DNA of 34,231 bases from Halorubrum persicum (GTDB lineage Archaea > Halobacteriota > Halobacteria > Halobacteriales > Haloferacaceae). The position numbers were made by a program, and so were the translations under genes. Below are positions 1,338-18,496 of the stretch, piece after piece. Where the stretch lies: assembly GCF_002727125.1 (NCBI RefSeq), contig NZ_NHOA01000083.1:1100-35330 (forward strand), given 5' to 3'. Below the pieces are notes generated by a model, which saw nothing but the letters and a program-made list of their open reading frames with translations, did no database searches and was not told the DNA's origin. Every line of letters begins with the position of its first letter. Position 1 is the first letter of the stretch.

Positions 1338-1544
1338 ATGGCAAACGGTAAGGTTGACTTCTTCAACGACACTGGCGGCTACGGTTTCATCTCGACTGAC
1401 GACGGCGACCTCGACGACGACGAAGACGTGTTCTTCCACATGGAAGACGTCGGCGGCCCGGACCTCGAGGAGGGTCAGGAAGTGGAGTTCGACATCGAAT
1501 CGTCCCCCAAGGGACCGCGCGCGACGAACCTCGTCCGCAACTAA
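1338..1544 (+). CDS. cspA: cold shock domain protein (CspA family)
   Basis: This encodes a 68-residue single-domain cold shock protein, the normal family length. The start ATG gives MANGKVDFFND, the usual haloarchaeal beginning. The RNA-binding RNP1-like segment is GGYGFIS (13-19) and RNP2 is VFFHM (31-35), with an acidic DDGDLDDDED insertion between them and a KGPRATNL ending that matches the family. Such proteins bind single-stranded RNA or DNA and melt secondary structure in transcripts. It stands alone, with a long upstream region containing inverted repeats and a compact hairpin right after its stop. Very high confidence in family; the cellular targets are unknown. Confidence 0.95.
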   Translation: MANGKVDFFNDTGGYGFISTDDGDLDDDEDVFFHMEDVGGPDLEEGQEVEFDIESSPKGPRATNLVRN

Positions 1545-1554
1545 CCCCCAAGTC

Positions 1555-1571
1555 GCGGACGGCGCGTCCGC
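1555..1571 (+). terminator. hairpin just downstream of cspA
   Basis: GCGGACG and CGTCCGC form a perfect 7-bp stem with a 3-nt loop, starting 11 nt after the cspA stop. No U-run follows directly, but a T-rich patch (around 1620-1630) lies further on. It may be a transcript-end stabiliser rather than a true terminator. Confidence 0.35.
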
Positions 1572-1644
1572 ACGCAACACCGGATCTCGGCTGTCGATCG
1601 ACGTGATCGACGCCATCTCCGTTTCTTTCACACGTAGCAACTCT

Positions 1645-15561: not shown

Positions 15562-17766
15562 ATGGGATCCTGTATCATTTGTGGCGTCGACGTCGACGGT
15601 GGCGGTCGCATCTGCGATCCGCACCAGGAGGACGTCGCGTTCGACTTCCGAGGCGACTCCCCCGACGAGATCGTTCCGAGCCGATTCTACCGCGGCGTCG
15701 TCGACGGCTACGCCGAGTTCGGCGTGTTCGTCGATCTCGCGCCGGGCGTGACCGGACTCCTCCACCGGTCGGAGCTCGACCAGCGGCTCGACAGCCTCGA
15801 CTGGGAGCCGGGCGACGAAGTGTTCGTCCAGGTCAAGGGCGTTCGCGACAACGGGAACATCGACCTCGCGTGGTCGATCCGGCAGGCCGACCGCGAGTTC
15901 CGCGGCGTGCTCGTGCAGGACGGCGACGACGAGTACCTTCCCGAGGAGGACGGCGCGGAGCCGGAGGCCGACGCCGAGCCGGACGAGCCCGACGTGAGCC
16001 ACGACGAGCCGAGCGAAGAGCGCGACGACGAACCGGCCGCCGCCGGAGACGATTCCGAGCCGAGCGAGCCGGACGAGCCAGCGGAGACGGCCGAAGCGGA
16101 CGAAGACGCCGCCGAGCCCGCCGAATCGGAGGGCGCTGACGAGACCGCCGAGGTCGACGATGGCGGTGTTGACGACGCTGACGACGCTGACGACGCAGAC
16201 ACCGATGGAGACGCCGCCGAAGAGGACGCTGACGCCGAGGAAGACGCCGATGACGACCTCGACGACGACCGCGAGCGCGTCGGGATCGGCACCCTCACCG
16301 ACGCCGTCGGCAGTGCGGTGCGGATCGACGGCGAGGTCGTCAGCGTCCGGCAGACCGGCGGGCCGACCGTCTTCGAGGTCCGCGACGAGACGGGCGTCGT
16401 CGACGTGGCCGCCTTCGTCGAACCGGGCGTCCGCGCCTACCCCGAAATCGAGGTCGGCGACACGGTGCGGATCGACGGCGAGGTCGAGAGTCATCGAGGC
16501 GACGTGCAGGTCGAGTCCGAGGCGCTCGTCCTCCTCGACGGCGAGGAGGCCGAGTCCGTCCGTCGCCGACTCGCCGAGGCGCTCACCGCCGAGGCCCGTC
16601 CGGAGGGGCTCCAGCCGCTCGCGGGCGACGAGGCCGTCGCGGCGCTCGCCGACGGGCTGCTCGACGCCGCGGAGGCGATCCGCCGCGCCGTGCTCGAATC
16701 GCGCCCGATCGTCGTGCGCCACCCGGCCACCGCCGACGGCTACGTCGCCGGCGCCGCGGTCGAGCGCGCCGTCCTCCCGCTGATCCGCGACGAACACGCG
16801 AAGAGCGACGCCGAGTACCACTACTTCACCCGCCGGCCGCTCGACGACCCGGTGTACGGGATGGACGCGGCCACCAACGACGCGACCCGCATGCTGCAGG
16901 ACCGCGACCGCCACGACGAGCAGCTCCCGCTGTTCCTGCTGGTCGGCACCGGCTCCACGGTCGAGTCCGCCGACGGGATCGACCTGCTGTCCGTGTACGG
17001 GGTCGACGCGGTCGTCGTCGACGCCGAGGTCGCCGACCCCGAGACGCGCGAGGCCGTCGACACCCTCGTCTCGCCCGAGATCGACGGCGTCGACGCCGAC
17101 CTGTCGACGGGCGCGCTCGTCGCCTCGCTGGCCTCCGCGGTCAACGACGAGGTCCGCGGGGACCTCCGACACCTGCCGGCGGTGAGCTACTGGGCGGAGA
17201 CCCCCGACCGCTACGTCGAGCTCGCACGCGACGCGGGCTACGACGCTGAGCGCATCGCCGAGCTCCGCGAAGCGGTCGCTCTGGAGGCCTACTACCAGTC
17301 GTACCAGGACAAGCGCGAGCTCGTCGCCGACCTCCTCTTCGAGGACAGCGGCAACCTCGCGGCCCACGTCTCCGAGCAGTTCCGCGAGAAGCTGGAGACG
17401 GAGCTCCAGACCGCGACCGAGAACGTCGTCACCGAGGCGGTCGACGGCGTCGAGTTCGCCGTCCTCGACACCGACGGCTACACCCACCGCTACGACTTCC
17501 CGCCGACGCCGCTCCTCCTCGACGACCTCCACCGGCGGAGCGCGAACGGCGAGGCGTACGCGACGGTCGGCGTCGGCACCGACGAGCTGTACATCCGGAC
17601 GACCGCCGACGTGTCCGTCCGCGACGTGGCCGAGCGCGCGGCCGAACTGGCGCCGAACGCCGACGTCGCCACCGCCGGCCTCCGCGAGGGCAAGATCGAG
17701 TTCCTCTCCGGCGAGCGCGACGCGGTCGAGGACGCGGTCGTCGCGGCCGTCGCCGAAGAGTTCTGA
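15562..17766 (+). CDS. zinc ribbon-S1-OB-DHH-like protein (RecJ-related, motifs degenerate)
   Basis: This encodes a 734-residue multi-domain nucleic-acid protein. Residues 4-21 hold a C4-xx-C7/C18-xx-H21 zinc-binding motif. An S1 RNA-binding domain spans about 38-110 ([24 protein letters not shown]). A very acidic, low-complexity linker runs from 122 to 238, and an OB-fold domain ([24 protein letters not shown]) covers about 240-325. From about 380 the sequence follows the DHH/RecJ architecture, but the catalytic motifs are eroded: RHPATADG replaces the HxDxDG type, and [11 protein letters not shown] (487-489) replaces DHH. It is probably a non-catalytic RecJ/Cdc45-like scaffold or a nuclease with altered chemistry. 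Haloarchaeal annotation often calls such proteins DHH family phosphoesterase or RecJ. It stands alone. Confidence 0.82.
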
Positions 17767-17798
17767 GTCGGCTGACGCGGTTTTGCGGCGAGTAGGGA

Positions 17799-17842
17799 AG
17801 TCAGAGGCGAAGGCCCCGCCGCTTAACGCGGGGAGGAAGTCA
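17799..17842 (+). mobile_element. probable solo right end of an IS200/IS605 (TnpB-type) element
   Basis: The segment GTCAGAGGCGAAGGCCCC, hairpin, GGGGAGGAAGTCAC strongly resembles the right end of haloarchaeal IS200/IS605-family elements, which typically end in a hairpin of the form GAAGCCCC...GGGGAGGA.GTCAC. The stem here pairs CCCCGC (17814-17819) with GCGGGG (17828-17833). No tnpA or tnpB sequence is present, since intact genes lie on both sides, so it is a scar. The TCA at 17840-17842 serves as the stop codon of the ferredoxin gene on the minus strand. Identification is by remembered motif. Confidence 0.5.
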
Positions 17843-18496
17843 CCGCCGCGTGAACGGTCCCGGCGGGAGAATGAGGTCGTCGAGCTCCGGGAGCTGTTTG
17901 ACGTTGAACACGACCTTCAGCTCGTCGCTCACGGGGTAGCCGTTACAGGAGAGTCGGAAGCCGCGCTCCGCCAGATCATCGGGCATGATGTGGTCGGTCG
18001 GCTGCGAGAGCTCTCCCTCCACGAGGTAGACGGCGCAGTTCGCGCACGCCCCGCCGCGACAGGAGAACGGCCACGTGAATCCGCGGTTCTCGGCCGCCTC
18101 CAGCAGGCTCTCGTCGGGCTGGACCAACAGCCGGCCGTGCGCCGACTCGTCGAGGTCGGCGTGGGACGCCTTCCGAAACAGGTCGTCGTCCTCCAACGAC
18201 CAGCCGTAGTCGTCGAGCGCCTCGTAGTCGAGGAACTCGACCCGGACCGGCTGCACCGCGTCGGCCTCGCCCTCCTCGTCGGTGAGGTCGATGTCTGCGG
18301 GGTCGGTCCCCTCGTCGGCCTCACCGTTTCGGTCCCGCTCGTCGAGCTCGCGATAGGCGCGCCTGACGAGCTGGAACTCCTCGACGGTCCCGCCCTGGTC
18401 CGGGTGCGCCTCTTTCACGCGGTCGCGGTAGGCCCGCTCGATGGCCGCCTCGTCGGCGTCTTCGTCGATATCCAGCACATCGAACGGCGAGACCAT
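17840..18496 (-). CDS. J-domain/[2Fe-2S] ferredoxin fusion
   Basis: This encodes a 218-residue protein. Residues 4-52 form a DnaJ-type J domain with the catalytic H31-P-D33 tripeptide. After an acidic linker, residues 84-205 form a plant-type ferredoxin with cluster ligands C146, C151, C154 and C184 (C-x4-C-x2-C-x29-C) and the [18 protein letters not shown] signature. The insert before the ferredoxin core ([17 protein letters not shown]) is typical of haloarchaeal ferredoxins. It should carry one-electron transfer, while the J domain may recruit DnaK, perhaps for cluster insertion or delivery. The ATG at 18496 is preceded by TTTATG at leaderless distance. It diverges from FEN1. The last codon abuts a mobile-element scar that supplies the stop. 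Confidence 0.9.

Follow-up and report, generated by a model that had tools for sequence, protein, structure and literature searches.

A probable core-deleted IS200/IS605 relic with fused ends between two convergent genes of Halorubrum persicum

What is the short GC-rich hairpin that separates two convergent genes in Halorubrum persicum, and does it have any present role? At this place, the window (the whole 34,231-nucleotide stretch of DNA that was analysed) carries a unit that reads GAGGCGAAGG-CCCCGC-CGCTTAAC-GCGGGG-AGGAAG-TCA and ends with base 17842. It lies between the gene for an OB-fold/S1-domain protein (15562–17766, plus strand), which we take to be RecJ-like by guess, and a gene for a DnaJ-domain/2Fe-2S ferredoxin (DnaJ-Fer2; 17840–18496, minus strand), whose stop codon is the TCA at 17840–17842. 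Both flanking genes are intact and encode recognizable Pfam domains. A single protein that combines a DnaJ domain with a 2Fe-2S ferredoxin domain was present in all 52 genomes of the genus that were searched. An earlier note had described positions 17799–17842 as a solo IS200/IS605-like right end, free of tnpA and tnpB and lying between intact neighbours, and had proposed that it reshaped the end of the ferredoxin gene and could encode an omega RNA. The sequence and the coincidence of TCA with the minus-strand TGA stop of the ferredoxin gene were as described, and the site is indeed free of transposon genes, with no TnpB matches on the window's contig and no TnpA matches in the genome; the unit itself, however, begins further left, at approximately 17793. 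In our reading, the feature is very probably a degenerate IS200/IS605 relic of this Halorubrum lineage, in which the core was deleted and the two ends were fused.

The window hairpin is more than a chance resemblance. The right-end pattern occurred at 13 places in the H. persicum genome, compared with none for the reversed-pattern control, and a second copy of the unit was found on contig C132 (45 bp, 87% identity, E = 3.8e-7). This second copy (locus L111, genome G000, contig C132, 3976–4015, minus strand) is likewise a drifted fused unit; judging gene names by eye, it sits between an aldehyde-dehydrogenase-like and a hydantoinase-like gene. A profile of fused units was trained on 42 examples, with the window and C132 copies left out, and gave one significant match in the window, at 17793–17842 on the plus strand (E = 4e-6; 21.7 bits over 50 nt). 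The model of right ends scored only 15.2 bits over 29 nt at the same place, and the C132 copy showed the same preference (35.1 bits for the fused model versus 18.1 bits for the right-end model), while true right ends showed the opposite one (36 versus 58 bits). As the fused model outscores the right-end model, the window copy resembles a fused unit more closely than it does a solo right end. Altogether, 44 distinct fused units (the window unit and 43 others) with unrelated flanks were compared; TTAC was present at the target or left cleavage position in 35 of them, AAAG as the left guide in 38, and TCAA as the right cleavage tetranucleotide in 39.

Reading the window copy from left to right, the target or left cleavage position (17792–17795) is a degenerate GTAG, and the left-end-type linker with the left guide, GAGGCGAAGG, occupies 17804–17813, the guide being AAGG in this copy. 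The near-terminal palindrome CCCCGC-CGCTTAAC-GCGGGG (17814–17833) has a 6-bp stem and an 8-nt loop, and is followed by the right-end tail AGGAAG and the right cleavage tetranucleotide TCAC (17834–17843), a variant that also occurs at L008 and L013. As single-stranded DNA, the window copy folded no better than shuffled sequences (z = −0.57), drift having shortened its stem to 6 bp.

The parental architecture is preserved in full elements, for which the genome, as the earlier note had suggested, and the genus were searched. In Halorubrum, they begin with TTAC-(~15–20 nt)-AAAG-hairpin-ATGAA and end with GAAT-hairpin-AGGATG-TCAA, so that their tetranucleotides are those published for IS608 (left cleavage site TTAC, left guide AAAG, right guide GAAT and right cleavage site TCAA; PMC5934647). 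In the H. persicum genome, which has 14 TnpB matches, the right end GGGAAT-CCTCGCGCTTCAGCGCGGGG-AGGATG-TCAA comes immediately after several tnpB genes; the element on contig C23 has this right end directly downstream of tnpB and the left end TTAC-GGAGAATCGAGGAGAAAG-CCTCGCGCTTTAGCGTGGGG-ATGAATCC upstream of it. Elements of genus relatives that encode both TnpA, recognized by eye from its HUH-type MPDHVHLF motif, and TnpB start with TTAC-GGAAAATTCGAGGCGAAAG-palindrome-ATGAAGCC and terminate with GGAAT-palindrome-AGGATG-TCAA. Full haloarchaeal elements sharing the terminal hairpin and tail with the window unit thus exist both in its own genome and elsewhere in the genus. With 14 TnpB matches and no TnpA (no PF01797 match in an assembly that is 97.65% complete), the H. 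persicum genome, G000, appears to hold TnpB-only elements with no detectable transposase in the assembly. In the right ends, the fourth base of the guide covaried with the fourth base of the cleavage site (GAAT with TCAA, GAAG with TCAC), as would be expected from a base-by-base interaction between guide and cleavage site; the GAAG/TCAC pair was represented by two examples only (L008 and L013), compared with L004, L005, L006, L010 and L099.

The fused unit shares its left linker, its palindrome and its right tail with the IS608-like TnpA/TnpB elements of Halorubrum (e.g., L099–L104), but it possesses a single palindrome and lacks the genes, the right guide and the omega-RNA scaffold. The window unit and the other copies consist of the left half of a left end, one palindrome and the right half of a right end, and the agreement of its left half with full-element left ends makes the window unit a left-right fusion. 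The earlier identification as an IS200/IS605-derived (TnpB-type) sequence was therefore right as to origin, while the designation as a solo right end was not supported, as the left half is of the left-end type. The nearest known systems are the terminal-only PATEs of Haloquadratum walsbyi (the core-deleted form of HqIRS46 and the 52-bp form of ISHwa23; PMC3119063). The window unit shows the structure and the length of a terminal-only PATE: its left part is of the left-end type seen in full elements (with a weak fit of the first 10 nt to the fused model), its right part resembles the right end, it has one palindrome, and its length (50 nt by the profile, approximately 53 bp in the family) is too short for a transposase. 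Like the Haloquadratum units of approximately 52 bp, the Halorubrum units have no ORF, an IS605-type near-terminal palindrome, no target duplication (as seen for the copy in genome G028), and termini fused as by core deletion between palindromes. They differ in belonging to another genus, the likeness drawn here is one of architecture, and the core deletion, which in Haloquadratum was seen between strains, is here deduced from the chimeric structure. The window unit is, in these terms, an ordinary, drifted relic of a kind already known from Haloquadratum.

A plausible route to such a chimera can be read from the ends themselves. An IS200/IS605 element would have inserted between the two convergent genes in this Halorubrum lineage, its left and right ends bearing near-identical GC-rich palindromes that amount to direct repeats of approximately 20 bp. 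Recombination or slippage between these palindromes would then have removed the core, including tnpA/tnpB and the omega-RNA scaffold, and would leave exactly the observed chimera, a residue of approximately 50 bp composed of the left-end linker and left guide, one palindrome and the right-end tail. We infer this route from the structure of the chimera; in H. walsbyi, the shrinkage of elements to 52-bp terminal-only PATEs by repeat-mediated core deletion was demonstrated between strains (PMC3119063). In the genome containing L105, a full element with the rarer GCGTGGGG right-end variant is found approximately 1.6 kb from a fused unit whose right half is of the same variant. The orthologous sites of two units were checked for a full element in one genome and a fused unit in another, and only empty sites or shared fused units were found. 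Tail repetition was also observed: at L079 (approximately 1512–1640, minus strand) the right tail of the fused unit is repeated in tandem, with about four occurrences of CGCGAGGAGGACGTCAA, and at L132 (approximately 1500–1560) a fused unit is accompanied by a second partial right tail.

The locus was compared with that of relatives lacking the unit, as the earlier note had also proposed. The same gene order without the unit was found in 21 relatives, in which the stop-to-stop gap was 12–82 bp (median 36), compared with 73 bp in the window. This absence identifies the window unit as an insertion and not as a terminator conserved at the locus in all species. A clean example of such an insertion is provided by the unit in genome G028, which is a precise 49-bp insertion after a tetranucleotide, with no target duplication, relative to the uninterrupted site in relatives. 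In the window, the unit is flanked by an 8-bp direct repeat, GGAAGTCA (17796–17803 and 17835–17842, plus strand), which has no other occurrences in the window and which makes the exact left boundary uncertain: it falls at 17793 by the profile, or at 17804 if the GGAAGTCA just before that position belongs to the host. Since the gap ends with GGGAGTCA in some relatives, the left copy may be host DNA, which corresponds to a 39-bp insert, or it may be a degenerate left end, which corresponds to an insert of approximately 50 bp. The intergenic lengths implied by both models fall inside the range of the relatives; the 39-bp model would imply an empty site reading GGAAGTCACCGCCGCG, and the ~50-bp model an empty site without GGAAGTCA.

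The ferredoxin gene end was not reshaped by the insertion, contrary to what had been suggested. The C-terminus PGPFTRR and the stop codon were at the same place in 30 of the 30 genomes read, whether the unit was present or absent; TCA was already the ferredoxin stop in 17 of the 21 same-order relatives. Judged from the letters, the TCA in the window could derive either from the element or from the host.

The evidence above also bears on two simpler readings of the hairpin. If an element had lost all but its right terminus, as first proposed, one would expect the match of the right 29 nt to the right ends of full elements (15.2 bits), a terminal TCAC such as that of L008 and L013, and the poor fit of the leftmost 10 nt to the fused model. 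This reading is nonetheless quite improbable, as GAGGCGAAGG and the positions preceding it match left ends, where right ends would have a GGGAAT/GGGAAG-type sequence, the window scores better with the fused model than with the right-end model, and the C132 copy and the family share the same fused arrangement. An ordinary transcription terminator would agree with a GC-rich hairpin flanked by convergent genes, but we consider it very improbable, given that no T tract follows the hairpin, that the same intergenic space lacks it in 21 relatives, and that it belongs to a dispersed family with unrelated flanks. The scan for terminators and promoters found no terminator-like or promoter sites, although the scan is of a bacterial type and is thus weak evidence for an archaeon.

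As a fusion of two ends, the unit might still function alone as an omega RNA, or as a source of guides, for TnpB encoded elsewhere, and both the 14 TnpB matches in the genome and the guide-adjoining right-end tail would suit such a role. RF02656 (sot0042), the haloarchaeal sotRNA/omega RNA family (PMC12558985), was searched with the right ends of the genome's own TnpB elements as positive controls, which scored 187.6 (L006), 137.5 (L004), 87.4 (L013), 61.6 (L010) and 28.5 bits (L008). In contrast, RF02656 matched neither the window unit nor the C132 unit nor the other fused units tested, and an Rfam search of the window region returned nothing relevant. The fused unit shares only the terminal palindrome and tail with this family, and the scaffold found upstream of the right palindrome is missing from it. 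We accordingly give the solo omega RNA almost no credence, and the proposal made in the earlier note is not supported for this unit. Mobilization in trans is another matter: one palindrome with a left guide only could serve both ends (TTAC and TCAA) for a TnpA encoded elsewhere. Near-identical units at 44 distinct sites speak in its favour, as do seven genomes that contain fused units but no left-end match, which trans mobilization would also explain, and Dyall-Smith et al. raised the possible mobility of 52-bp units (PMC3119063). We regard it as unlikely all the same: the foot of the palindrome has no right guide GAAT, TnpA was not found in the window's own genome, genomes G045 and G046 have both kept two units in place, and none of the three motifs is intact in the drifted window copy.

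For the core-deleted relic that we favour, immobility is what the motifs predict. The fused unit keeps the left guide and loses the right guide, so that by the IS608 rules no excision is expected. In the window copy, in addition to the loss of GAAT, which recognizes TCAA, the TTAC and AAAG motifs have been replaced by GTAG and AAGG, and the right cleavage position reads TCAC. Together with the lack of a PF01797 match in the genome, the unit does not have the motifs or the tnpA of an active IS200/IS605 element; on its letters, the window copy is probably inert, and it most likely has no present role. The two retained units (loci L169 and L170), which lie 6.1 kb apart, occupy the same sites in both genomes, and G045 and G046 are 99.3% identical over 10 kb. 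The units have been retained vertically, and this fits with the absence of excision.

Fused units are widespread in the genus. With up to 3 mismatches allowed and the per-genome tables summed by hand, the fused-unit pattern, from the left linker through the right tail, was found at 123 places in 38 of the 52 Halorubrum genomes; six of these were left-end forms, leaving approximately 117 fused units. For the intact left-end form, 37 genomes gave 173 places, the C132 unit being one of these places. In the wider family, pattern matches were present in 43 of 148 genomes and 13 of 28 genera, with carriers including Halorubrum sodomense, H. trapanicum, Halorubrum sp. Hd13 and Halomicroarcula rubra.

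For the locus itself, these results correct two tempting over-readings, namely, a solo omega RNA and the remodelling of a gene end. For the family, the fused units provide a ready-made test case for asking whether one palindrome that carries a left guide only can be moved; if they do prove to be mobile in trans, they would be the smallest mobile units of the IS200/IS605 type and would break the two-guide rule of IS608. Across Halorubrum, fused ends of approximately 50 bp and intact left ends are comparable in abundance (~117 versus ~170 places), which makes it probable that haloarchaeal elements of this type often undergo core deletion outside Haloquadratum as well.
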